From IMG/VR virus record IMGVR_UViG_3300044645_001672, positions 1 to 21,200 of that record: DNA of 21,200 nt. One strand, given 5' to 3'. The notes beneath the pieces were generated by a model. That model was given only the letters and a program-made list of their open reading frames with translations. It had not been told where the DNA came from and made no database searches. How positions within the stretch are numbered: position 1 is the stretch's first letter; each line of letters opens with the position of its first letter. This stretch comes from a virus. Positions 5,665 to 21,174 of the stretch are shown piece after piece. The position numbers were made by a program, and so were the translations under genes.

Positions 5665-6204
5665 ATGAAAACAATCGGTGATAAGTTAGGTAATTTTTCT
5701 TTAGTTGGAGTTAAGCCAGGTGCCTTAACTTATGAAGATAGTTCTTTTGAAGTTCTTAATCAGGACTCATTTCCTGGAAAGTGGAAGATAATTGTTTTTT
5801 ATCCAAAAGATTTTACATTTGTATGTCCAACAGAAATTGTTGCTTATGACAAACTAGTTAATGACTTTAATGACAGAGATACCGTTCTTATAACAGGCTC
5901 TGTAGATAATGAATTTTGTAAGATTGCATGGAGAAATGCACACGAAGATCTACGTAAAACAAACTCGTGGTCTTTTGCTGATACAGCCAGACAATTGGCA
6001 GAAGATCTTGGAGTAATATCTCCATCAGGAGTTGCATATCGTGCAACATTTATAATCGATCCAGAAAATACAATTCAGCATGTAACTGTTAATAATCTTG
6101 ATGTTGGAAGAAATGCCGATGAAGCTCTTCGTGTTTTAGATGCTCTGCAAACGGGAGAGCTTTGTGCATGTAACAGACCTTTAGGCGGTGAAACAATTGG
6201 CTGA
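5665..6204 (+). CDS. ahpC: Alkyl hydroperoxide reductase AhpC (2-Cys peroxiredoxin)
   Basis: This 179-residue peroxiredoxin closely follows the actinobacterial AhpC layout. KDFTFVCPTEI holds the peroxidatic Cys54, GVAYRATFIIDPENTIQ the conserved Arg region, and the C-terminal GELCACN the resolving Cys pair at 167 and 169, as in mycobacterial AhpC, which is recycled by AhpD. An extra Cys85 sits in EFCKIAW. It would reduce H2O2, alkyl hydroperoxides or peroxynitrite. It is driven by a consensus promoter with a leader hairpin; the ribosome-binding site is only purine-rich. Its end overlaps ahpD by 17 bases (8 if ahpD starts at its TTG). Confidence 0.95.
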   Translation: MKTIGDKLGNFSLVGVKPGALTYEDSSFEVLNQDSFPGKWKIIVFYPKDFTFVCPTEIVAYDKLVNDFNDRDTVLITGSVDNEFCKIAWRNAHEDLRKTNSWSFADTARQLAEDLGVISPSGVAYRATFIIDPENTIQHVTVNNLDVGRNADEALRVLDALQTGELCACNRPLGGETIG

Positions 6205-6715
6205 TTGGGTAGAGCTACTTAAGGAGTCACTCCCTGAATATGCTAAAGATATAAAGCTTAACCTTGATTCTGTAATGAATAGAAGCTCTGGGATTAATAC
6301 AGAGGACGCAAGATACATAGCTCTTGCCGCAGCGTTTGCTACTGGAAACTCCAAGCTTGTTGCATTCATATCATCAAACTCAGATAATGAAGTTGAAAAA
6401 AATGCTGCTCTTACAGCTGGATCCATAATGGCTCAAAACAATGTTTGGTATCCATATTTAGAGATGGCAGATGACCCTAACCTTTCTGGCCTTCCAGCTC
6501 AGCTAAGAATGAATGCTATTGCCACACATGGCGGAACTGAAAAGACAAAGTTTGAGGGGTATTCTTTAGCTGCATCAATTGTAGGTAAATGTCATTTCTG
6601 CGTAAAGGGCCATTATGAAACTCTTAAAGGGTTTGGCTATACAGCAGAGCAACTAAGAGATATCGGAAGAATTGCAGCAACAATGAATGCAGTTTCAAAG
6701 ATATTATCTGCATGA
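6188..6715 (+). CDS. ahpD: Alkyl hydroperoxidase AhpD, reductant of AhpC
   Basis: The product aligns along its length with mycobacterial AhpD: LPEYAKDIKLNL near the N-terminus, MAQNNVWYPYLE in the middle, LRMNAIATHG, then the FE Glu and the active site C135-HF-C138 with His142 (CxxCxxxH). AhpD passes electrons to oxidised AhpC through a lipoyl-dependent chain supplied by the host. The start is ambiguous: GTG at 6188, or TTG at 6197, which has AGGCGG at good spacing and gives an N-terminus closer to known AhpD. Both overlap ahpC, so translation is coupled. Confidence 0.93.
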   Translation: MKQLADWVELLKESLPEYAKDIKLNLDSVMNRSSGINTEDARYIALAAAFATGNSKLVAFISSNSDNEVEKNAALTAGSIMAQNNVWYPYLEMADDPNLSGLPAQLRMNAIATHGGTEKTKFEGYSLAASIVGKCHFCVKGHYETLKGFGYTAEQLRDIGRIAATMNAVSKILSA

Positions 6716-6984: not shown

Positions 6985-7169
6985 GAAGGCTTCTAGACGG
7001 ATCCCATGTTGAAGAATATCCTAATGCAGTTGATTTAACAATTCATACTAAGGCTCCAGGTAAATGGAAGCTAATTGATATGGAGACTGGACAAGAGTAT
7101 TTAGGCTGTGGAGTTCCTACTAAGTACGGAGAATGGAAAAGAATCAAAGATAAATTAATTGGGGATTAG
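6981..7169 (+). CDS. Hypothetical protein, 62 aa, ending inside tRNA-Asn
   Basis: The GTG start overlaps the upstream stop (GTGA) and is preceded by GAGGAAG. The product contains DLTIHTKAPGKWKLIDMETGQEYLGCG and looks like a small beta-rich domain. Its last three codons and stop (7158-7169) run into the 5' acceptor arm of tRNA-Asn, so the two genes overlap by 10 bases. No family recognised. Confidence 0.72.
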   Translation: MRRLLDGSHVEEYPNAVDLTIHTKAPGKWKLIDMETGQEYLGCGVPTKYGEWKRIKDKLIGD

Positions 7170-7231
7170 CTCAGCGGCAGAGCGGGAAGCTGTTAACTTC
7201 TAGGTCATTGGTTCGAATCCAGTATTCCCAG
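7160..7231 (+). tRNA. tRNA-Asn (GTT)
   Basis: The cloverleaf is complete: acceptor TGGGGAT with ATTCCCA (one G-T pair), D arm GCTC...GAGC, anticodon stem GGAAG/CTTCT with loop CTGTTAA giving anticodon GTT, T arm ATTGG-TTCGAAT-CCAGT, discriminator G. No CCA is encoded. The 5' end overlaps the stop of the preceding gene. Confidence 0.92.
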
Positions 7232-7237
7232 CAAGTA

Positions 7238-11468: not shown

Positions 11469-11653
11469 TTTTGTCTAATCTGGCATATTCCCCCATATTT
11501 GTCAATAGATACATTTCAGGGAATTTTTGTCAACTGTCGTAAATAGACAATTTCGCCCTCTTTGTCCAATATTTATGTATATTTATTCTATTATATTCTG
11601 GACAATTTATGGCAATTTGTCTACAATTCTGTATGTATTTAAATAGATTTGTC
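11469..11653 (+). repeat. Array of TTTGTC words
   Basis: WTTTGTC-like words occur in the same orientation at 11469, 11497, 11525, 11561 (TTTGTCC), 11615 and 11647, with inverse copies at 11414 and others. The core is the same as the TTTGTCAG box of the minus-strand promoters. This frequency is far above the expectation for a 6-mer in about 250 bases. Confidence 0.65.
11514..11558 (+). repeat. Direct repeat copy 1
   Basis: TTTCAGGGAATTTTT at the left, CTGTCGTAA in the middle and TTTCGCCC at the right match the copy at 11670-11714 in order and spacing, with different bases between. Confidence 0.7.
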
Positions 11654-11669
11654 GACATTTCTATATAAT

Positions 11670-11714
11670 TTTCAGGGATTTTTATTATGTTGTCGTAATA
11701 GAAAAATTTCGCCC
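11670..11714 (+). repeat. Direct repeat copy 2
   Basis: TTTCAGGGATTTTT, TTGTCGTAA and TTTCGCCC repeat the elements of 11514-11558. The TTCAGGG part also appears in the minus-strand intergenic regions. Confidence 0.7.
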
Positions 11715-11728
11715 CATGCCCACACATT

Positions 11729-11773
11729 TTATCCACAAAAAAATCCACACCCTGTGGATAAGGATGTGGATAA
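11729..11773. other. Cluster of three DnaA-box-like 9-mers
   Basis: TTATCCACA at 11729-11737 (plus) and TGTGGATAA at 11753-11761 and 11765-11773 (minus orientation) are perfect DnaA-box consensus words within 45 bases, next to an AT-rich zone. One of them also forms part of a terminator hairpin, which weakens the origin reading. Confidence 0.5.
11737..11759 (-). terminator. Intrinsic terminator of minus-strand gene 11793
   Basis: Read on the minus strand, ATCCACA-GGG-TGTGGAT is a 7-bp stem with a 3-base loop followed by T7 (plus-strand A7 at 11737-11743). It lies about 35 bases beyond the stop of the 120-residue gene. Confidence 0.8.
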
Positions 11774-11792
11774 TTCTGTGAGCTATGTTTAA

Positions 11793-13715: not shown

Positions 13716-13867
13716 TACATTTTCCCTTCCGCTAGCATTTTGTCTAAAAACTCATGAACTTCTTCTAATCTAATTTTGATATCTTCTTGGGCTGGCGGTA
13801 AATAGAAAGCAGCCATATTCAAAGCAAACTTCATTCTATCTATATCTATTTCAGTATATCCTAACAT
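13715..13867 (-). CDS. Hypothetical protein, 50 aa, tandem paralogue
   Basis: This is the first of the two MLGY paralogues. It starts at the second ATG of an ATGATG pair (the first is at 13870), overlapping the upstream stop. The shared pattern MLGY-x3-D-x-D-x-M near the start and EFL-x4-AEG near the end suggests a conserved two-helix fold. Function unknown. Confidence 0.7.
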   Translation of the reverse strand: MLGYTEIDIDRMKFALNMAAFYLPPAQEDIKIRLEEVHEFLDKMLAEGKM

Positions 13868-14079
13868 CATAGTAAGAACTCATCTCCTTCAATATACCCG
13901 TAGTATTCATTATATGATTGTTTTAAGTTATCAGGTGCAAATTGCATAAACTTATATTCTGCATATGCTGAGCCTTCATCTAAGTTAGCATTGTTCCATT
14001 GCTCAAATAGATGTTGCTCAATATCTACTTGAATTGCTCCAAGAATATGCTCTCCTACTGTATCTGTAAATGCTTCCAT
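13867..14079 (-). CDS. Hypothetical protein, 70 aa, first gene of an eight-gene operon
   Basis: I choose the ATG at 14079: it has the standard CGAAAGGG leader and a TGTCAG promoter. A longer frame starting at 14175 would run across that promoter. The product is aromatic and acidic (SAYAEYKFMQFAPDNLKQSY). It opens the operon that runs through gene 12473. No family recognised. Confidence 0.78.
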   Translation of the reverse strand: MEAFTDTVGEHILGAIQVDIEQHLFEQWNNANLDEGSAYAEYKFMQFAPDNLKQSYNEYYGYIEGDEFLL

Positions 14080-14103: not shown

Positions 14104-14127
14104 ATTATATATTAAGGCACTGACAAA
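14104..14127 (-). promoter_or_regulatory. TGTCAG-class promoter, copy 1
   Basis: Minus strand TTTGTCAG, 10 bases, TATAAT (14109-14104). No -35 fits well. It lies 25 bases ahead of the gene at 14079. Confidence 0.8.
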
Positions 14128-14143
14128 TGGAATAGATTTCCTA

Positions 14144-14159
14144 TGTGATACCCGCCACA
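14144..14159. promoter_or_regulatory. CRP/GlxR-like site, one mismatch
   Basis: TGTGA-N6-CCACA, one base off the TGTGA-N6-TCACA consensus, centred about 54 bases upstream of the predicted start of promoter copy 1. Confidence 0.5.
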
Positions 14160-14160
14160 T

Positions 14161-14176
14161 TGTGGCAAAGCTCACA
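14161..14176. promoter_or_regulatory. Second CRP/GlxR-like site, one mismatch
   Basis: TGTGG-N6-TCACA, centred 17 bases from the site at 14144 and leading straight into the TTTCAGGGG repeat. Confidence 0.55.
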
Positions 14177-14212
14177 AAATTTCAGGGGATTTTTACTTGA
14201 CTTCTTAAAGAG
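14171..14212 (-). repeat. Dispersed intergenic repeat
   Basis: CTCACAAAATTTCAGGGG, then a T-run, then ACTTGACTTCTTAAAGAG. It closely matches 19966-20009, and its TTCAGGGG core recurs at 11514, 11670, 16648 and 18036. Confidence 0.65.
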
Positions 14213-14236
14213 AATAATATACCCTCATGTCTTTGT

Positions 14237-14273
14237 GGGCAAAAAGAAGATCCCCCAGATCTTACCTGGGGGA
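14237..14273 (-). terminator. Intrinsic terminator
   Basis: Stem TCCCCCAG/CTGGGGGA (14251-14258 with 14266-14273), 7-base loop, followed on the minus strand by TCTTCTTTTTG. It closes either the operon at 14383 or the candidate RNA below. Confidence 0.85.
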
Positions 14274-14365
14274 CCATAGATTAGGGCTGCTAAGAGTAAC
14301 CAACGAAAGTAACAATCTCTGCCTTACTTAGCTCCTGGCCATACGACTAGATAGAAGCACCCTAA
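14238..14365 (-). ncRNA. Candidate structured small RNA
   Basis: The stretch between gene 14383 and the terminator codes for nothing credible. On the minus strand it begins with an extended -10 (TGATATAAT), then TTAGGGTGCT (14365-14356), which pairs with AGCAGCCCTAA (14291-14281) in a 10-bp stem with one bulge across 64 bases. Inside, AAGTAA and TTACTT can pair. An intrinsic terminator follows. A promoter, an enclosing stem and a terminator in about 130 bases fit a small RNA; a structured 3' UTR is the alternative. Confidence 0.5.
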
Positions 14366-14371
14366 AATACT

Positions 14372-14380
14372 ATTATATCA
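14372..14380 (-). promoter_or_regulatory. Extended -10 promoter of the candidate RNA
   Basis: TG-A-TATAAT on the minus strand, directly after the stop of gene 14383. TTGACT is 7 bases further upstream, too close for a -35. Confidence 0.5.
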
Positions 14381-14382
14381 TA

Positions 14383-14748
14383 TTAGTCAACTGAGACTAA
14401 TGTATACCTATTTACAAATTCAGCAATGCCGAACTTTGCTACGACTGTAGTAAGGTCCTCTTCAAAAAGAGTTACGGTTTGTTCTGCCCAATTGACAACA
14501 GGTACCTTGTGCTCATTGTCATCCAATCGATTAATGCTAAAGCCCCAACCAGTTGTTGAAGTCCATTCATCTCCAATTAAATGTGATGTAGCAATTCGTG
14601 TTGCATAGGATGAGTCACCCCACCTTGGCTCTGCTGCAGACAGCGCTGCTGCCAAGTTGCCAAGCATGTTGTGACCTGCCCAGTGCCCGTACAAAAACAA
14701 TGTGTCACCGCTGTTTTGTTTAAATCCAAAATTTGCTCTGTCTCCCAT
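14383..14748 (-). CDS. Phage protein with MGDRANFGF N-terminus, 121 aa
   Basis: The product begins MGDRANFGFKQNSGDTLFLY, followed by GHWAGHNMLGNLAAAL. This N-terminal pattern recurs in actinophage proteins of unknown function. It is mixed alpha/beta with no membrane span. The start overlaps the upstream stop (TAATG). It is the last gene of the operon that starts at 16584. Confidence 0.8.
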   Translation of the reverse strand: MGDRANFGFKQNSGDTLFLYGHWAGHNMLGNLAAALSAAEPRWGDSSYATRIATSHLIGDEWTSTTGWGFSINRLDDNEHKVPVVNWAEQTVTLFEEDLTTVVAKFGIAEFVNRYTLVSVD

Positions 14749-14954
14749 TATAGTTCCGCCTCTTCTAATGTAGGTACTGCTTCGGTTTTGTTTAATTCTA
14801 CTACTTCATATGCGACCTTGTCAAGGCCACGCTTGCTTGCATTGTAGTGGTGGCCACAAAAGAAAAGCTCACCTTCTACTAGTTTAACTACATACATTGC
14901 TTGAGCCGTGCCACATTGGTCACAGCCAATCCATCTAGTTAAGTCTTCTGTCAC
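14748..14954 (-). CDS. Zinc-ribbon protein, DUF7455-like, 68 aa
   Basis: The pattern CDQCGTAQAMYVV, then GELFFCGHHYNASKRGL, matches the small actinobacterial DUF7455 zinc ribbon: CxxCG, a strand, and FCGHH. The start is GTG, overlapping the upstream stop (GTGA). Family function unknown. Its presence supports an actinobacterial host. Confidence 0.75.
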   Translation of the reverse strand: MTEDLTRWIGCDQCGTAQAMYVVKLVEGELFFCGHHYNASKRGLDKVAYEVVELNKTEAVPTLEEAEL

Positions 14955-15097
14955 AGGTCGTTGCCTTCAATCATATCTGCTAATTGATTAAGTAACCATG
15001 AATCGATATCGGTGATATCAATCTCACGCAACTTCTCCATTAGTTCTTCACGAGCAAACTTGTACCCGTCTGTAAATCCTTCTTTGTAGTCTGACAC
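14951..15097 (-). CDS. Hypothetical protein, 48 aa, GTG start
   Basis: A strong AAGGAG precedes GTG. The product is a charged helix (MSDYKEGFTDGYKFAREELM and on). It is one base after the upstream stop and overlaps the next gene (GTGA). No family recognised. Confidence 0.7.
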   Translation of the reverse strand: MSDYKEGFTDGYKFAREELMEKLREIDITDIDSWLLNQLADMIEGNDL

Positions 15098-15098
15098 T

Positions 15099-15314
15099 TT
15101 AACTCCTTATATATCCCGTTGGTTCGAATTCAGAAACATACACTTCTTCAAGATTGTATTTCTCTCTAAGGTGTGTTACTTTCTCAATACTACCAGTTCC
15201 AATGTTGAATGTCAACGGCTCTTCGCTGGCTTCAGGATCTAAACCAAGCATCTCCGCCTCCCAGGTGGCCCGTGCATAGGCCACCTTAGTTGGTGCAGTA
15301 AGTTCAAAGTACAT
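15099..15314 (-). CDS. Hypothetical protein, 71 aa
   Basis: It starts on the upstream stop (TAATG). The product (MYFELTAPTKVAYARATWEA at the N-terminus, EEVYVSEFEPTGYIRS at the end) shows an alternating strand pattern. No family recognised. Confidence 0.72.
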   Translation of the reverse strand: MYFELTAPTKVAYARATWEAEMLGLDPEASEEPLTFNIGTGSIEKVTHLREKYNLEEVYVSEFEPTGYIRS

Positions 15315-15934
15315 TAGTCCACCTCGATTGAATCTATAGATGATGACAAATATGTAATTGGTTCATCATATGACACTGTGTCAAAGTCTGTATCGTGAAT
15401 TGAATTAATAGCATCCTCTTCGCTTCTAGCATTAACTGTAACTGAATATTGAACTGTTACAGTCAACTCAAATTCATTTGTTAGTTCGAAACCGCAGATG
15501 CTTGCAATTTCTTCGGCTTGATATTCTGTAATAGAATCGTCATCAAGTCCCTCCAGAGTAAATATCTTCATGTCATCACGCAACTTATTTAAGGTTGATG
15601 CGGTTGCATAGTCACGCTGAGTTACACGCTGAATCTGTTCTTCTAACTGTGCTATGCGTGCTTTGTTTTCTACTAACTGTGACTCAAGGAAGTCTCGTGT
15701 CATGTAGTGGTTATCGATTACTGGCTGGTCCATTTTTTCCTCTTTCGTTTGGTTTGTTGTTGGTAGTGTAGCATGCTCCACTGACAATAATGTAGTCTTG
15801 CGACCACAAGGGCATGTGAGCTCGGTCACACCAGATGGGAATCCAAATCCATCTGATGATGTTAGTTCGATTAAAGAATCACATTCATTTGGGTCACAGA
15901 CAAATGTATATTTAGATGAAATTAAATCTGTCAT
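15314..15934 (-). CDS. Two-part protein: N-terminal zinc ribbon and C-terminal coiled-coil domain
   Basis: The full frame is 206 residues. Residues 1-67 contain C13 and C18 (VCDPNEC) and a CPC pair at about 41-43, a probable zinc ribbon. From MDQPVIDNH (residue 68, ATG at 15733) a separate domain follows: a coiled coil (ESQLVENKARIAQLEEQIQRV), then a beta-rich part. The junction DNA carries a complete TGTCAG-class promoter and a CGAAAGAGG ribosome-binding site, so the C-terminal part (15314-15733) is probably also made alone. It overlaps its neighbours at both ends. Confidence 0.75.
   Translation of the reverse strand: MTDLISSKYTFVCDPNECDSLIELTSSDGFGFPSGVTELTCPCGRKTTLLSVEHATLPTTNQTKEEKMDQPVIDNHYMTRDFLESQLVENKARIAQLEEQIQRVTQRDYATASTLNKLRDDMKIFTLEGLDDDSITEYQAEEIASICGFELTNEFELTVTVQYSVTVNARSEEDAINSIHDTDFDTVSYDEPITYLSSSIDSIEVD
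15765..15788 (-). promoter_or_regulatory. TGTCAG-class promoter, copy 2, inside a reading frame
   Basis: Minus strand ATTGTCAG, 10 bases, TACACT (15770-15765), followed by a CAAAC-rich leader and CGAAAGAGG before the ATG at 15733. Confidence 0.7.
15815..15830. promoter_or_regulatory. Perfect CRP/GlxR-like palindrome
   Basis: TGTGA-N6-TCACA with centre GCTCGG, lying in coding sequence about 64 bases upstream of the predicted start of promoter copy 2. Confidence 0.6.
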
Positions 15935-16584
15935 GATTCATACCCACACTTCTGGCATGTCTCTACACCCTTTTCATCATCATAGATTAAACAATCAGTC
16001 TCATCACATTCACGACAAATGTTATCGTATTCTGATTCTGAGATAACTACACCACGAAGGATTTCTAGTTCACCGCCCCAGCCAGTCTCTTCCTCATATG
16101 ATAAAGTAAATAGCAAGTCAGGGTATTGTGCAGATAGTTTAGTTAATGCACCCATTGGGCGACCCCAAGCAGTTTGAAAATTATAATGAACTACATGGTT
16201 ATCACCATTGGCGGTTTCCTCCATATTAGTATCAGGATACTTGTCATTTACAGATACGGCAACATCCCATTTAGTTCCCCACTCACGGATATTAAAGTTA
16301 TACCAGTCATCAGTAAGACACTTCATTGCTTCTGAAATTGGGAGGGAATAGTCAGGCTGACCAAGATATACTTCTTCAGTAATACCAGCATCCATGTAGT
16401 TATAGATATTATGAAATGCAAAGACAGGCTCTGCATATAAAGTATTCTTCTTCATGAATGTATTCTTACTTACATCCCATGAATCATGCATTTGAGTAAA
16501 TGGCTTATTTAATTGAGCCATCATTTTCTTAACTGATTCAGGATTACCTTCTACGGTTAATCCATTAAATACCCAGTTTGGCAT
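15931..16584 (-). CDS. Api92-like phage protein with C-terminal zinc ribbon
   Basis: I start at MPNWVFNGLTVEG (ATG at 16584), which has CGAAAGG and a promoter; the frame extends 20 codons further but crosses the promoter. PNW-x2-NGLTV at the start, REWGTKWDVAV (about residues 105-115), a FQTAWGRPMGALTKLSAQYP block and YEEETGWGGE are the conserved blocks of the Api92/DUF1281 ferredoxin-like family of phages and plasmids. The tail has CREC and CQKC pairs, a probable zinc ribbon. Function unknown. First gene of its operon; the stop overlaps the next start (ATGA). Confidence 0.8.
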   Translation of the reverse strand: MPNWVFNGLTVEGNPESVKKMMAQLNKPFTQMHDSWDVSKNTFMKKNTLYAEPVFAFHNIYNYMDAGITEEVYLGQPDYSLPISEAMKCLTDDWYNFNIREWGTKWDVAVSVNDKYPDTNMEETANGDNHVVHYNFQTAWGRPMGALTKLSAQYPDLLFTLSYEEETGWGGELEILRGVVISESEYDNICRECDETDCLIYDDEKGVETCQKCGYES

Positions 16585-16614
16585 TTGATATCCTTTCGTT
16601 GGTGATATGTCAGA

Positions 16615-16644
16615 ATTATAGCGGATGCCACTGACAAATGTCAA
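16615..16644 (-). promoter_or_regulatory. TGTCAG-class promoter, copy 3, with -35
   Basis: Minus strand TTGACA (16644-16639), then TTTGTCAG, 10 bases, TATAAT (16620-16615). This copy also has a perfect -35 with an 18-base spacer, showing that the box sits between -35 and -10. Confidence 0.85.
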
Positions 16645-16727
16645 CAGATTTCAGGGGTTTTTTTAAATTGGTCGTAACGGAATTAGGCTGCCTTCAGGTA
16701 TGGGGGCATCTTTCTGCAACTGTAAGG

Positions 16728-16801
16728 TGTGCCATGTAGGACTTGAACCTACGACGACCGAATTATGAGTTCGGGGCTCTAACCAACTGAGCTAATGGCA
16801 C
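16728..16801 (-). tRNA. tRNA with CAT anticodon (Met, or Ile2)
   Basis: Acceptor GTGCCAT/ATGGCAC, D arm GCTC...GAGC, anticodon stem CCGAA/TTCGG with loop CTCATAA, T arm GTAGG-TTCAAGT-CCTAC, discriminator A. The anticodon CAT could be elongator Met or lysidine-modified Ile. No CCA is encoded. The acceptor does not look like an initiator tRNA. Confidence 0.9.
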
Positions 16802-16805
16802 CTTG

Positions 16806-16879
16806 CGATCTGTATCGGACTTGAACCGACGGCCTCTACCGTGACAGGGTAGCGCTCTAACCAACTGAGCTAACAGACC
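16806..16879 (-). tRNA. tRNA-Asp (GTC)
   Basis: Acceptor GGTCTGT/ACAGATC with one G-T pair, D arm GCTC...GAGC, anticodon stem CTACC/GGTAG with loop CTGTCAC giving GTC, T arm GTCGG-TTCAAGT-CCGAT, discriminator G. It lies 4 bases from the CAT tRNA, and both follow the DUF932 gene, so they are probably processed from its transcript. Confidence 0.92.
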
Positions 16880-16886
16880 AAATGGT

Positions 16887-16907
16887 GAGCAGTTTTAAAT
16901 CTTGCTC
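16887..16907 (-). other. GAGCA/TGCTC hairpin between DUF932 and tRNA-Asp
   Basis: GAGCA and TGCTC pair around 11 bases, embedded in CCTGAGCA...AACTGCTCAC on the minus strand. A related hairpin lies at 18455-18475. Confidence 0.5.
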
Positions 16908-16921
16908 AGGATTTTTATTTA

Positions 16922-17926
16922 TTAAAACGCAGAAACTAATTTTTTAATTTTATTTTTTTCTGCGGTAAGAACAGGGTCAAATCCTGATGCACCTGCAATA
17001 AGTGATTCAGAATTTCCTCGTGCAGTACGATAGTAATCTAGGCGTTCAGTAAGTGCATTAAATGCGCCCCACTTTGTTCCCTTGATTGTCGCATTGGTTG
17101 GTGAGTTATGATACAAATCATCAAGCAAAACAACTTTGTTTTCCCACTTCTTTAGCGCACCCTTAGAATCCTTTTCAGGCTTTGGGTAGATTGTCTGAAT
17201 CAACTTTGAGAATTCTGCATCAGTAATTGATTGATTGAACATTGCTTGTGCTTCCTTCTCAAATTCATCAAAGTATCCTAGAGCAAGACCGAGAGTCTCA
17301 CGGGCAACTTGAATTCGTCCTTCAACTGATTGTGTATGACGAATCTTAAAAGATTGCTTTGCATTACGCATTGCAAGGTTAAGAGTGTTTTGGCATACAA
17401 CACGAACAGGAGTAACAGCAGCCTGAACAGCAACTGACCCGTCATGAGATGTCCAAACAATTAAATAAAGTTTTGTCTCGTCATTTGCACCTTGTGGGTC
17501 AAGCACCATTGTGCGGGGAATGTCCACAGTACCAAAAACAACTTTACCGCTACGCAATGAGCCAGCAGATTCCCAAAAACAATTTGGGTCTGCATCATGA
17601 ATAGCATCAGCAAATGCAAACAATTCTTCATTCTGCACTGGCTTGTAACGCTTACCAACAGTAGCAAGAACATCAGTTCCGCCATTGAATGGATTGTCAC
17701 GCAACACAAGAGATGCGGTAGAAACATCATTCCATGATTCTGGAATGTGCTCAGTGATTGGAGATAGACGAACATTCCAATTAGACAACTTTGCTTCATT
17801 AAGCATTGTTTGTGTTGTAACTTCTTCATCTTGATTAAAGATGCGATTTGCTAATCCATGCCATGCTGGTTTTCCACGCAAAGCAAAAGCAACTTCGCCA
17901 TTTTCAGTTTCTAGATTATGAGCCAT
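16922..17926 (-). CDS. DUF932 phage/plasmid-like protein
   Basis: The 334-residue protein fits the DUF932 family (TIGR03299 type): N-terminal ETENGEVAFALRGKPAWHGL, VGKRYKPVQNEELFAFADAI in the middle, then TPVRVVCQNTLNLAMRNAK. Members are common in phages and plasmids; their function is not established. This is the longest gene of the minus half. It has CGAAAGG, promoter copy 4 and a perfect CRP-like site upstream, so it may be highly expressed. The two tRNA genes lie downstream on the same strand. Confidence 0.88.
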   Translation of the reverse strand: MAHNLETENGEVAFALRGKPAWHGLANRIFNQDEEVTTQTMLNEAKLSNWNVRLSPITEHIPESWNDVSTASLVLRDNPFNGGTDVLATVGKRYKPVQNEELFAFADAIHDADPNCFWESAGSLRSGKVVFGTVDIPRTMVLDPQGANDETKLYLIVWTSHDGSVAVQAAVTPVRVVCQNTLNLAMRNAKQSFKIRHTQSVEGRIQVARETLGLALGYFDEFEKEAQAMFNQSITDAEFSKLIQTIYPKPEKDSKGALKKWENKVVLLDDLYHNSPTNATIKGTKWGAFNALTERLDYYRTARGNSESLIAGASGFDPVLTAEKNKIKKLVSAF

Positions 17927-17958
17927 AATTTATTTCCTTTCGGTTGGTTGATAAACTG

Positions 17959-17982
17959 AGTATAACATAGGGCACTGACATT
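17959..17982 (-). promoter_or_regulatory. TGTCAG-class promoter, copy 4
   Basis: Minus strand AATGTCAG, 10 bases, TATACT (17964-17959). A TTGTTA -35 with a 17-base spacer is also possible. Confidence 0.8.
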
Positions 17983-17999
17983 AACAAGATTAGACAGTC

Positions 18000-18013
18000 A
18001 TTTGTCGACAAAT
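18000..18013. promoter_or_regulatory. Palindrome ATTTGTCGACAAAT
   Basis: A perfect 14-bp palindrome of two TTTGTC half-sites between the promoter and the CRP-like site; a similar TTTGTCGACA lies at 11648. Confidence 0.5.
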
Positions 18014-18017
18014 AAAA

Positions 18018-18033
18018 TGTGATGAATCTCACA
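18018..18033. promoter_or_regulatory. Perfect CRP/GlxR-like palindrome upstream of DUF932
   Basis: TGTGA-N6-TCACA (centre TGAATC), about 73 bases upstream of the predicted start, followed by the TTTTCAGGGG repeat. Confidence 0.68.
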
Positions 18034-18045
18034 AATTTTCAGGGG

Positions 18046-18077
18046 TTTTCCACAGGAGGCCGTAAGTCTGTGGATAA
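18046..18077. other. Two DnaA-box-like 9-mers facing each other
   Basis: TTTTCCACA (18046-18054) and TGTGGATAA (18069-18077) fit TTWTNCACA and its inverse. TCCACAG/CTGTGGA can also form a 7-bp hairpin. Confidence 0.35.
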
Positions 18078-18117
18078 CCGCCCACATATTTGGGGGCAGA
18101 TTTAAAGTTGGGAAGAT

Positions 18118-18152
18118 GGGGCGGGACACAAAAGGCATTAAGATCCCGCCCC
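18118..18152 (-). terminator. GC-rich hairpin after gene 18158
   Basis: GGGGCGGGA (18118-18126) pairs with TCCCGCCCC (18144-18152), 9 bp with a 17-base loop, immediately after the stop of gene 18158. No strong T-run follows. Confidence 0.6.
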
Positions 18153-18157
18153 AAGCT

Positions 18158-18418
18158 TTATGCTAAGTGTAATTCCTTAGCAGTATTAGATAGTTTAGAT
18201 TTAACAGATGTAATTATTTCCATTGGTAAAAACATTGCAGTTGTCTTCTTCTTTTTAATTGTATCGAATACAAATGCTTTTACATTACCATCAAAGCGTG
18301 CTATGTTGCTATAAACTAATTCAGTTAAATAGTCTTTGTCCACGCCTTGCTCTGAATAAATTGTTAAATCATTTTGCTTGTTTTCATCATAGATTTCTAT
18401 TCTGAAACGATTAGCCAT
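18158..18418 (-). CDS. Hypothetical protein, 86 aa
   Basis: An AAAGG site precedes the ATG. The product starts MANRFRIEIYDENKQNDLTI and has a Lys-rich centre (IKKKKTTAMFLPMEII); probable alpha/beta fold. It follows gene 18491 with a 72-base gap that holds two hairpins and no promoter of the main class, so it is likely cotranscribed. No family recognised. Confidence 0.78.
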   Translation of the reverse strand: MANRFRIEIYDENKQNDLTIYSEQGVDKDYLTELVYSNIARFDGNVKAFVFDTIKKKKTTAMFLPMEIITSVKSKLSNTAKELHLA

Positions 18419-18440
18419 TTTATTACCTTTGTTAGTAGGG

Positions 18441-18475
18441 ACACCCGAAGGTGTGAGCAGTTTGGCGACATGCTC
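18441..18475 (-). other. UUCG-tetraloop hairpin and GAGCA hairpin in an intergenic leader
   Basis: On the minus strand ACACC-TTCG-GGTGT (18454-18441) is a C(UUCG)G hairpin, an extra-stable tetraloop. Just before it, GAGCA...TGCTC (18475-18455) forms a second stem like that at 16887. Both lie between genes 18491 and 18158. Confidence 0.6.
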
Positions 18476-18490
18476 AGGTCGTTAGATTAT

Positions 18491-18913
18491 TTAGAGATAA
18501 CGAGCAACCGCATTGTAAGTGCTGGTATTAACTGTTTCCTCATCTGTCATCTTGAGAATACGAATTGCGTTTTCGATTTCTTGCTTTTGCTCTAGGTATG
18601 TGTGACGACCCATCTGCTCAAAGTCACGCTCAGGCTCTGTTGGCAGGTCTGATTGTGTAACTGTCAAATCAAAGTCAATGTTGAGAGTGTTATTCCAAGC
18701 ACGATAGTTGGTACGGAAGTTTTCTGCCTTCTTGATGTTAGAAACGGCATAGGCAGTAATTTCCTTCTGCCACTTTTCCATAGCCTTCTTGTACTTTGCT
18801 TCGTTTGTTTCTTGATTAGCATAGTTGGCGTTAAGTTCTACTAACTTTGCCTCAAGTGCCTTGATTACCTTTGGTGTTGCGATTTTTACTGAGATTGCTT
18901 TTCCTCTAGCCAT
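18491..18913 (-). CDS. Hypothetical helical protein, 140 aa
   Basis: A strong CGAAAGAGG leader and promoter copy 5 precede the ATG. The product starts with MARGKAISVKIATPKVIKAL, followed by a long charged helical region likely to form a coiled coil, and ends with EIENAIRILKMTDEETVN. No named family recognised. Confidence 0.82.
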   Translation of the reverse strand: MARGKAISVKIATPKVIKALEAKLVELNANYANQETNEAKYKKAMEKWQKEITAYAVSNIKKAENFRTNYRAWNNTLNIDFDLTVTQSDLPTEPERDFEQMGRHTYLEQKQEIENAIRILKMTDEETVNTSTYNAVARYL

Positions 18914-18949
18914 TTGTTTCCTCTTTCGTTAGTTGGTTTGGTTAATTGT

Positions 18950-18973
18950 ATTATAGCGGAGGGGTCTGACAAA
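18950..18973 (-). promoter_or_regulatory. TGTCAG-class promoter, copy 5
   Basis: Minus strand TTTGTCAG, 10 bases, TATAAT (18955-18950). The box lies in the loop of the terminator hairpin of the upstream gene. Confidence 0.8.
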
Positions 18974-18988
18974 TAGTGAGACCCCTCC
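18958..18988 (-). terminator. 10-bp hairpin terminator overlapping promoter copy 5
   Basis: GGAGGGGTCT (18958-18967) and AGACCCCTCC (18979-18988) pair perfectly with an 11-base loop, starting 6 bases after the stop of gene 18995. Confidence 0.7.
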
Positions 18989-18994
18989 ACTTCC

Positions 18995-19171
18995 TTATAC
19001 TAGGCTATTGTTGCTAACTGTTGTCCAACGAGTTTCCTTTGTTGGCATTTCCAGTAGCACACGCACCGAGCCAGATGCGTTAGGAATAATCTCTTTGATT
19101 ACTCCAGTTTTCTTTGACTTAAGAGTGGTGAATAAATCGCCAACCTTGTAAGTGTATCCATTTACTGTCAT
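18995..19171 (-). CDS. Hypothetical SH3-like small protein, 58 aa
   Basis: The product (MTVNGYTYKVGDLFTTLKSK, then GVIKEIIPNASGSVRVLLEM) has the alternating strand-turn pattern of a small SH3-like barrel. It has an AGAAAGG site, its own TGTCAG-class promoter (copy 6), a perfect CRP-like site and a hairpin terminator, so it is a complete single-gene unit. No family recognised. Confidence 0.75.
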   Translation of the reverse strand: MTVNGYTYKVGDLFTTLKSKKTGVIKEIIPNASGSVRVLLEMPTKETRWTTVSNNSLV

Positions 19172-19197
19172 TTTGCTTCCTTTCTGTTTAGGGTGTT

Positions 19198-19221
19198 ATT
19201 GTAGCATTAGGGTCTGACATT
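19198..19221 (-). promoter_or_regulatory. TGTCAG-class promoter, copy 6
   Basis: Minus strand AATGTCAG, 10 bases, TACAAT (19203-19198), 27 bases ahead of the gene start. Confidence 0.8.
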
Positions 19222-19237
19222 TATCAAGCCCCTGGGG

Positions 19238-19253
19238 TGTGATAAGCATCACA
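19238..19253. promoter_or_regulatory. Perfect CRP/GlxR-like palindrome
   Basis: TGTGA-N6-TCACA (centre TAAGCA), overlapping the last codons of gene 19249 and about 54 bases upstream of the predicted start of promoter copy 6. Confidence 0.65.
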
Positions 19254-19389
19254 AGTATTCTGTTAGGTCGCCGTCCATAATTTCGTTCAGCTCCAAGCCT
19301 TCTGAGTCTGCGATAGCCTCCCATAGATCCATTTCATTAAAGTCTCCGTCTGGGTGTCTTTCGGATAAGATAGAATAAAGATTGTTCAT
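19249..19389 (-). CDS. Hypothetical acidic microprotein, 46 aa
   Basis: It begins on the upstream stop (TAATG) after a GAGGAGG site. The product is acidic (MDLWEAIADSEGLELNEIMD). Its final codons overlap the CRP-like site of the next promoter. No family recognised. Confidence 0.7.
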   Translation of the reverse strand: MNNLYSILSERHPDGDFNEMDLWEAIADSEGLELNEIMDGDLTEYL

Positions 19390-19658
19390 TAGTATTCCTC
19401 CTCTGGTAGCCAAGCATTTAAGTGGTGTGCATCAACAATTGCGGATGCGGGTGCAGTAACCTGTCCACGCCATAACACGCCTTCAGGTAAAGCAATTTCA
19501 CGATTGTAGTCCTCATCATAGAAAGCATCAATTGCTTCTATGCAAGGCTCCACCATAGAAAGCGGAACTGGTGGATAGTGATTACCTTGCAAGTGATAAC
19601 CAAGAGCAACCTCTAAATCTAATTCATTAGATAAATCTAGCGCAGTGTTGTATCCCAT
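19389..19658 (-). CDS. Hypothetical protein, 89 aa
   Basis: The product contains YHLQGNHYPPVPLSMVEPCI, a segment that looks like a recurring actinophage protein. Mixed alpha/beta with an acidic end. It abuts the upstream stop directly and couples to the next gene (TAATG). Function unknown. Confidence 0.78.
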   Translation of the reverse strand: MGYNTALDLSNELDLEVALGYHLQGNHYPPVPLSMVEPCIEAIDAFYDEDYNREIALPEGVLWRGQVTAPASAIVDAHHLNAWLPEEEY

Positions 19659-19865
19659 TTATTCTGCCACCTTTACGATAGCCCAAGAGCCACCTTCGTT
19701 AATTGTTTCTAGTACTGGATAAATTGCAGGTAGCACCATAGACTTTAATGCGCCTTCTAGCATAGCAATTTGTGACGCCTTATCAAGTGCCAATAGACGG
19801 GCACCTGTTGGGTTAGTTTCATCAACCTCTGTTACGAAGTTTAGAGAGTGTGCGATTGATACCAT
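19659..19865 (-). CDS. Hypothetical protein, 68 aa, first gene of operon
   Basis: A CGAAAGG leader, promoter copy 7 and a perfect CRP-like site lie upstream. The product (FVTEVDETNPTGARLLALDK, then ASQIAMLEGALKSM) is mostly helical. No family recognised. It heads the 19249-19865 operon. Confidence 0.75.
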   Translation of the reverse strand: MVSIAHSLNFVTEVDETNPTGARLLALDKASQIAMLEGALKSMVLPAIYPVLETINEGGSWAIVKVAE

Positions 19866-19895
19866 TGTTTTACCTTTCGTTTGTTTGATAATGGA

Positions 19896-19919
19896 ATTGT
19901 AGCATGGTCCACTGACAAA
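19896..19919 (-). promoter_or_regulatory. TGTCAG-class promoter, copy 7
   Basis: Minus strand TTTGTCAG, 10 bases, TACAAT (19901-19896), 31 bases ahead of the gene start. Confidence 0.82.
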
Positions 19920-19955
19920 AATTCCAACACGCCCAATGTTTATCTAATTTATTTA

Positions 19956-19971
19956 TGTGATAAACCTCACA
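19956..19971. promoter_or_regulatory. Perfect CRP/GlxR-like palindrome
   Basis: TGTGA-N6-TCACA (centre TAAACC), about 74 bases upstream of the predicted start of promoter copy 7 and leading into the TTCCAGGG repeat. Confidence 0.68.
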
Positions 19972-21150: not shown

Positions 21151-21174
21151 ATTGTACCAAAACCCACTGACATA
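21151..21174 (-). promoter_or_regulatory. TGTCAG-class promoter, copy 9
   Basis: Minus strand TATGTCAG, 10 bases, TACAAT (21156-21151), 30 bases ahead of the gene at 21120. The upstream DNA runs out of the window. Confidence 0.78.

Follow-up and report, generated by a model that had tools for sequence, protein, structure and literature searches.

Within the window, the whole 21.2-kb stretch of viral DNA analyzed here, palindromes of the form TGTGA-N6-TCACA precede a series of predicted promoters. This sequence is the textbook consensus that we take to be the target of CRP/GlxR-type regulators, and the palindromes are predicted, with a rough probability of 0.65, to be operators kept by selection for such a regulator of the host. 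Their helix-spaced arrangement before a block of genes suggests that infection may be tuned to the nutritional state of the host. A preliminary description had reported four perfect and two one-mismatch copies, with ~0.02 perfect copies expected by chance, and its observation on the sites is confirmed: a scan of the whole window returned perfect copies at 15815, 18018, 19238, and 19956 only and one-mismatch copies at 14144 and 14161 only, and the recomputed chance expectation for perfect copies is 0.024 per window (0.007 per 5.8 kb). Among the 5-N6-5 palindromes in the window, TGTGA was the sole half-site that recurred (four times). As had also been claimed, every site lies upstream of a predicted minus-strand TGTCAG-N10-TANNNT promoter, with centers at -54.5 to -74.5. 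The attribution of these sites to CRP/GlxR is partly supported by the data presented below.

All features of the window described here are on the minus strand; center distances were measured to the first base of the -10 element, which was set at -12 for values relative to the start. The perfect palindrome at 19956..19971 has its center at about -74.5, 62.5 bp before the -10, and precedes a predicted TGTCAG-N10-TACAAT promoter (19896..19917) and a small gene of 68 aa (19659..19865) with no Pfam match and no assigned function. A second TGTCAG-N10-TACAAT promoter (19198..19219) lies behind the perfect palindrome at 19238..19253 (42.5 bp, about -54.5) and is followed by a small gene of 58 aa (18995..19171), likewise without an assigned function. 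The perfect palindrome at 18018..18033 (61.5 bp, about -73.5) precedes a predicted TGTCAG-N10-TATACT promoter (17959..17980) and the marker gene used below, which encodes a DUF932 protein of 334 aa (16922..17926; Pfam PF06067, E 7e-57; phrog_1221); directly upstream of this site is a CCCTGAAA element (18037..18044), and a DnaA-box sequence, TTATCCACA, is located upstream at 18069..18077. The fourth perfect palindrome (15815..15830; 52.5 bp, about -64.5) falls within the upstream coding sequence and is followed by a predicted TGTCAG-N10-TACACT promoter (15765..15786) and a gene of 139 aa without an assigned function (15314..15733), for which a search with a slightly longer frame gave no Pfam match over the cut-off. 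The two one-mismatch palindromes, at 14144..14159 (42.5 bp, about -54.5) and, off the helical lattice, at 14161..14176 (59.5 bp, about -71.5), share a predicted TGTCAG-N10-TATAAT promoter (14104..14125) before a small gene of 70 aa with no assigned function (13867..14079). A fifth perfect site, at 72.5 bp, belongs to the predicted TGTCAG-N10-TACAAT promoter at 21151..21172; it lies past the end of the window and is visible in the longer contig L005, which encodes a marker protein 100% identical to that of the window. Two further predicted TGTCAG-N10-TATAAT promoters have no CRP site. The one at 18950..18971 has a site in 0/71 copies, and the one at 16615..16636, which carries a consensus TTGACA -35 with an 18-bp spacer, has a one-mismatch site instead in 51/71 copies among relatives. 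For most of the block genes tested, a named function was absent.

Through the DUF932 marker gene, 80 related IMG/VR loci (914 kb) were collected. These contain 452 perfect copies of TGTGA-N6-TCACA, whereas 29 permuted half-sites averaged 1.7, so that a chance origin, already at odds with four perfect copies against 0.024 expected in the window, is ruled out. The inverted TGTGA repeat occurs 452 times with a gap of exactly 6 bp, as in a CRP/GlxR-type operator, and 0-12 times at gaps of 3-5 and 7-10. A TGTCAG-N10-TANNNT promoter lies 40-98 bp downstream of 367/452 perfect sites. Conservation of position among relatives, which had been set beforehand as the test on which the proposal could fail, was found for the perfect sites. 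Counting one-mismatch copies, with a search zone that started 30 bp upstream of the -10, a site precedes the DUF932 gene in 81/81 copies (77 perfect and 4 one-mismatch), the gene behind 19238 in 70/71 (43 perfect and 27 one-mismatch), and the gene behind 15815 in 22/22 (18 perfect and 4 one-mismatch), and the gene behind 19956 has a perfect site in 40/40 copies. Conservation is poor for the weak pair at 14144/14161, with a one-mismatch site in 9/32 gene copies and none in 23. The promoter pattern used in this count also picks up a chance match where the family-1 gene begins, which inflates the siteless copies of that gene (18/73). Sites were lacking at 230/600 unique promoters. In three contigs of 115-120 kb, all perfect sites are confined to 4-6 kb, and the rest of these contigs is without them. 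Since the loci are kin and neighboring distances in one gene family are not independent, all of these counts exceed the number of events.

The palindromes could in principle be non-functional passengers of a repeated intergenic cassette. Intergenic cassettes in these phages do share several elements at fixed spacing, including DnaA boxes, TTACG, and CCCTGRAA, and a cassette with its site at 57.5 bp was found before several genes. However, the 452 sites comprise 96 distinct 16-mers and are phased across gene families, and the site at 15815 is kept inside a coding sequence, where silent positions vary freely between the half-sites and are frozen only within them. In 18 distinct copies of this overlap, Val is encoded by GTG in 18 (background 0.13) and Leu by CTC in 15 (background 0.09), and the third base of the Thr codon within the N6 takes all four letters. 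This codon pattern rules out spread in a duplicated cassette as the whole story, and we regard hitch-hiking as highly improbable.

The sites are also phased on the helix. For families of downstream genes (58 family-distance combinations), the best period was 10.4-10.9 bp with R 0.61, a value reached by 0/20,000 uniform draws, and the distance of the site for one gene shifts by one or two turns between phages (e.g., 42.5, 52.5, and 62.5). On a lattice drawn after the peaks were known, 226/259 placements fall on the helical positions; another 29/259, at 56.5-58.5, are half a turn off, and 20 of these 29 contexts have one sequence in common. The register relative to predicted starts would be -54.5, -64.5, -74.5, and -84.5. 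Within the window, the one-turn steps of the preliminary description hold for 5/6 sites and fail for the weak site at 14161, which is ~3 bp off. The resemblance to CRP class I promoters (E. coli lac type; Corynebacterium GlxR regulon) extends to the 16-bp TGTGA-N6-TCACA and to its placement upstream of the polymerase footprint in one-turn steps at the period given above. In E. coli, the class I register is -61.5, -71.5, and -82.5 from the start. The proposed likeness to class I is imperfect: the inferred register is ~3 bp from -61.5/-71.5, and the cassette at 57.5 falls half a turn away. The phage promoters differ further in carrying an extra TGTCAG at -28 to -23. At galP1, CRP sits nearer the core, in contrast with the phage promoters, where 52-110 bp separate the site centers from the assumed start.

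In the typical module, the CRP site is followed after 16-73 bp (mostly 18-48) by TGTCAG-N10-TATAAT, in which the -10 is usually of the TGn extended type. This is predicted to be a shared promoter type of large low-GC actinophages with the CRP site as its upstream module, and TGTCAG-N10-TATAAT provides a promoter definition usable for annotating a large actinophage group. T4 middle promoters combine a -10 with a hexamer, the MotA box, which sits near -30 within what is normally the -35/-10 spacer, and the phage promoters are built alike with TGTCAG in that place. A phage sigma factor reading TGTCAG was dropped as a candidate, given that Sigma70_r2 had no match in 15 contigs and Sigma70_r4_2 matched in 2/15, below the cut-off. 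Among 592 unique promoters, TTGACA (spacer 16-19) was present in 10, a number that rose to 117 when one mismatch was allowed, and the other 475 had no such -35. In one gene family, promoters with a TTGACA -35 were siteless in 10/10 unique cases, which may represent one lineage, and TTGACA was found in 0/38 promoters with a one-mismatch site. Known CRP-activated promoters offer parallels, according to PMC2613000: lac has an imperfect -35 with an 18-bp spacer, as do part of the phage promoters in having a poor -35 at this spacing, and galP1 has an extended -10 and no -35, similar to the TGn extended -10, putatively dispensable -35, and putative CRP activation of the phage promoters.

The CRP/GlxR-type reader probably acts as an activator. 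That it instead binds to repress or delay the genes is unlikely, although there is precedent, as host cAMP-CRP represses the regulator gene pir of coliphage T1 (PMC6737242) and GlxR is described as an activator or repressor of genes (PMC7026483). The core promoters also lend repression some support: -10 hexamers are not weaker at promoters with a site (family-level p 0.36; Fisher p 0.54), and promoters with a site more often have a one-mismatch -35 (96/369) than those without (21/223), leaving a weak core promoter unsupported as a mark of activation in the CRP clade. Against repression, the sites leave the core uncovered, with centers 40.5 bp or more ahead of the -10 in the promoters examined, and upstream activators typically show this combination of helical phasing and variable distance.

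The phage contigs searched, some of which are fragments, yielded no CRP-family protein: profile searches for cNMP_binding (PF00027) and HTH_Crp_2 (PF13545) matched in 0/20 and 0/28 contigs, respectively, making a phage-encoded CRP improbable. A CRP/GlxR-type protein of the host is therefore the likeliest, if putative, reader, and we infer that host CRP, cAMP, and carbon sensing may be involved. A phage regulator of another fold or a non-CRP host regulator might use the palindromes as its operators, and this we consider quite unlikely. In favor of such a reader, most block genes tested are without a named function, the CRP profiles would miss any regulator of another kind, and the cassettes carry further fixed elements. 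On the other hand, the palindromes combine the CRP/GlxR consensus with A/T-rich flanks across the family, sequence comparison revealed that GlxR and E. coli CRP have the recognition-helix residues SRETV in common, and no GlxR-like gene was found in the viral contigs, in a weak test with only two peptide patterns. As to the host, the actinobacterial marker WhiB is present in 20/28 phage contigs; a search through the phage AhpC gene kept 80 loci, mostly from Proteobacteria, with no actinobacterial title.

If the palindromes are operators for the host CRP/GlxR-type regulator, CRP dimers, probably with cAMP, would bind them and help recruit host RNA polymerase from one face of the helix to promoters with a poor or absent -35, in the manner of CRP at the lac and gal promoters, and a block of small, probably early genes would be expressed according to the host cAMP or carbon-energy state. 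The ~3-bp register offset, the half-turn cassette, the -10 elements that are not weaker, and the siteless promoters count against this explanation. If it is true, the carbon/energy status of the host would determine, through an early step of transcription, how productive an infection is. Single cases of phage genes under host regulators are known. In cyanophages S-PM2d and P-SSM2, genes are under host PhoBR, and PhoB binds at three S-PM2d promoters by gel shift (PMC10976474). These phages resemble the present ones in having genes with sites, predicted here, for a host nutrient regulator, but there the pair is PhoB and phosphate, and the sites do not form a phased array on one promoter type. 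T1 pir similarly has a phage promoter under host cAMP-CRP, as is putative here, but it is a prophage regulatory gene and CRP-repressed. In the present phages, phased predicted sites for one global host regulator accompany an entire block of genes, probably early ones, across many relatives; titles and abstract openings of the papers retrieved from open-access PMC yielded no report of CRP sites in actinophage promoters.

The marker gene was found in 4/611 isolate records, and perfect sites numbered 0 in Streptomyces phages Jay2Jay and LukeCage, 1 in Streptomyces phage Phredrick, and 0 in Arthrobacter phage Mufasa8; hence, these isolates gave no sign of the array beyond the low-GC clade. More tentatively, TGTCAG-N10-TATAAT might constitute a shared early-promoter platform with a swappable upstream slot on one face of the helix. 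One lineage would fill the slot with CRP/GlxR palindromes, often accompanied by paired DnaA boxes, and a CRP-less lineage with a LexA-box-like CGAACA-N2-TGTTCG. Host global regulators would read this slot, wiring takeover to carbon, replication, and DNA-damage state, and a redirected polymerase, for example by way of phage WhiB, might recognize TGTCAG. We find this broader scheme possible but doubtful. In a few cases, LexA-box-like palindromes were present in CRP-less relatives at spacings similar to those of the CRP sites.

Re-scanning the window recovered the CRP/GlxR-type palindrome TGTGA-N6-TCACA (hereafter the CRP site) at all six coordinates named in the preliminary description, perfect at 15815, 18018, 19238, and 19956 and with one mismatch at 14144 and 14161, and the computed expectation of 0.024 perfect copies per window agreed with the chance figure of about 0.02 given there. 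Relatives were gathered via the DUF932 protein (16922-17926, minus strand; Pfam E 7e-57), whose gene lies behind the 18018 site; the minus strand is the coding strand of the window genes from about 11.8 kb on. The best 80 of 262 IMG/VR stretches encoding related proteins, from parent contigs of up to 120 kb, comprised 914,125 bases and contained 452 perfect CRP sites, as compared with a mean of 1.7 and a maximum of 10 for 29 permuted half-sites and with 0-12 palindromes at half-site spacings of 3-5 and 7-10.

These 80 loci also held 957 matches to the TGTCAG-type promoter core, 953 of them on the coding strand, with a profile of A/T, TGTCAG, 10 bp tending to TGn at the end, and TATAAT; the gap was 10 in 843 of 886 TGTCAG-to-(-10) pairs (gaps of 6-19 considered). 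Most perfect CRP sites (367/452) were 40-98 bp upstream of such a core. In three contigs (116,220, 115,655, and 120,000 bases examined), the 4, 5, and 6 CRP sites were all confined to 4-6 kb, and only 1 of 18, 1 of 15, and 2 of 15 promoters lay outside this block. Thirteen contigs of 100-120 kb, picked for carrying the DUF932 gene or a CRP site, had 4 to 11 sites each and 0 copies of the reversed pattern. In G008, the contig of locus L019, 3 of 11 sites recur at a constant distance of 108,742 bases, at the contig ends, a pattern suggestive of overlapping ends or of a terminally repeated phage genome; end repeats are absent from the 21,200-base window record.

The 825 promoters of 81 loci (the 80 and the window) were sorted by downstream gene into 51 families. 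Sites were perfect in 77 and one-mismatch in 4 of the 81 DUF932 members, perfect in 40/40 for the gene behind 19956, perfect in 43, one-mismatch in 27, and absent from 1 of 71 for that behind 19238, and perfect in 18 and one-mismatch in 4 of 22 for that behind 15815. Positional conservation extends to four of the genes but is poor for that behind 14144/14161, with 9 one-mismatch copies and 23 of 32 members without a site. Promoters of families 3, 6, 10, 14, and 18 (71, 42, 29, 17, and 10 copies) had 0 CRP sites, indicating that the site is tied to particular genes rather than to every promoter. A perfect site was present in 251 of 600 unique promoter contexts and a one-mismatch site in 119, leaving 230 with neither; shuffled upstream sequence gave 0.1 and 1.4, respectively. 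The 15815 site sits within upstream coding sequence (GVTxLTCP) and is perfect in 44/51 copies. In 18 distinct versions of this overlap, Val was GTG in 18 (background 0.13) and Leu CTC in 15 (0.09). All four letters, by contrast, occurred at the third base of the Thr codon, which falls in the N6; the copies are related by descent, but the contrast between half-site and N6 holds regardless of their independence. We conclude that the arrangement of site and promoter is a real, strongly conserved regulatory architecture.

Among 259 unique placements, distances from site centre to the first base of the -10 peaked at 42.5, 52.5, 62.5, and 72.5, and a small number were at 83.5. Of these placements, 226 deviated by no more than 1.5 bp from a lattice of one-turn steps that spans 38% of positions and was drawn after the peaks were seen. 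Over 58 family-distance combinations, a less redundant test in which distances 1 bp apart within a family are still non-independent, the best period was 10.7 bp (R 0.61), matched by 0 of 20,000 uniform draws. The same peaks appeared among 120 and 66 loci from two additional pattern scans of IMG/VR, the first of which was limited to gaps of 18-48; some of the contigs are also represented in the 80 loci. The one-turn steps proposed in the preliminary description recur in relatives, but a separate peak at 57.5 departs from them: 29 contexts lie at 56.5-58.5, of which 20 carry GCGACACGCC, compared to 15 of 571 others.

An upstream activator bound at the CRP site would touch polymerase from one helix face, and such a mode fits sites that lie clear of the core and the finding that one gene's site can differ by one or two turns among phages. 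The register deduced here differs by about 3 bp from that of E. coli class I sites. A consensus TTGACA -35 occurred in 10 of 592 unique phage promoters, all in one gene family and all without a CRP site, and none of that family's 38 members with a one-mismatch site had TTGACA. The window promoter at 16615-16656 and its nearest relatives have the TTGACA and no site, and remoter relatives the reverse, a one-mismatch site and no TTGACA, as if the two elements had replaced one another. However, a one-mismatch -35 was commoner with a site (96/369) than without (21/223), and a weaker -10 at site promoters was not seen (p 0.36; p 0.54). CRP-driven promoters treated in PMC2613000 include lac, which has an imperfect -35 and an 18-bp spacer, galP1, which has an extended -10 but no -35, and synthetic constructs whose sole element is a -10. 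According to PMC10127613, most Clr-activated promoters carry their sites between -42 and -76, and the distance is about 60-90 bp for E. coli class I.

Domain profile searches of phage contigs, some of them fragments, detected neither cNMP_binding (20 contigs) nor HTH_Crp_2 (28 contigs), with control genomes positive (10 and 14 of 14), and a search limited to two peptide patterns found no GlxR-like protein in viral contigs. The likeliest reader is therefore a CRP/GlxR-type protein of the host, and the sequence evidence supports the CRP-type reading of the palindromes well. As a whole, we assign a probability of roughly 0.65 to selected operators for such a host regulator, through which, we infer, host state may be sensed. 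WhiB, described as an actinobacterial marker in PMC6802176 and PMC10202952, was found in 20/28 contigs. The nearest isolate relatives of the DUF932 protein belong to Streptomyces phages (Stanwilliamsviridae; at most 52% identity), and in the 30 best isolate records its gene occurs in two places and is 1.2-2.6 kb away from the end of the genome, suggesting a terminal block, presumably early. Precedents mentioned in the literature are PhoB in cyanophages (PMC10976474) and CRP at the coliphage T1 pir promoter (PMC6737242); no report of this CRP-site array surfaced in searches of open-access papers.

Further elements recur upstream, at preferred offsets from the CRP site start, in the 80 loci: the DnaA-box sequence TTATCCACA at about -43 and -21 (in the window, 18069-18077, upstream of the CRP site), TTACG or TTTAAG at about -31, and CCCTGRAA at about -11. 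Paired TTATCCACA copies are seen about 22 bp apart with TTACG/TTTAAG in between and CCCTGRAA adjoining the CRP site; TTATCCACA in both orientations totals 361 in these loci, compared to about 9 expected from base composition. Loci L328, L330, and L338 have 0 CRP sites but many TGTCAG promoters (17, 14, and 11). These and six similar loci (L438, L442, L445, L430, L423, and L450) carry CGAACA-N2-TGTTCG, which we take to be LexA-box-like, at 42.5, 52.5, 53.5, or 74.5 upstream of the -10, and an off-consensus -10 occurred in 7 of 8 distinct promoters with this palindrome versus 24 of 65 without (Fisher p 0.009, a small, post hoc comparison). These patterns suggest that TGTCAG promoters may have a swappable upstream regulator slot. 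Placement was less regular elsewhere: where CRP sites were present or TGTCAG promoters were few, the palindrome lay at 76.5, 88.5, and 93.5-97.5, and in loci whose consensus promoters numbered below two it lay at many different distances, most often 67.5; such copies may have been picked up by chance, since the scan covered the whole collection.

In the window, tRNA-Met and tRNA-Asp genes (16726-16879) adjoin the DUF932 gene; tRNA-Asn is encoded at 7160-7232. An AhpC/TSA-family peroxiredoxin gene, its protein sharing 64% identity with proteins of Ralstonia and Burkholderiales, is followed by a carboxymuconolactone-decarboxylase-family (AhpD-like) gene (5665-6715). Where the plus-strand gene block gives way to the minus-strand one, an AT-rich stretch (11500-11780) contains DnaA-box sequences at 11729, 11753, and 11765 as well as TGTCGACAAAT-like and CCCTGAAA elements, and is a possible replication origin.
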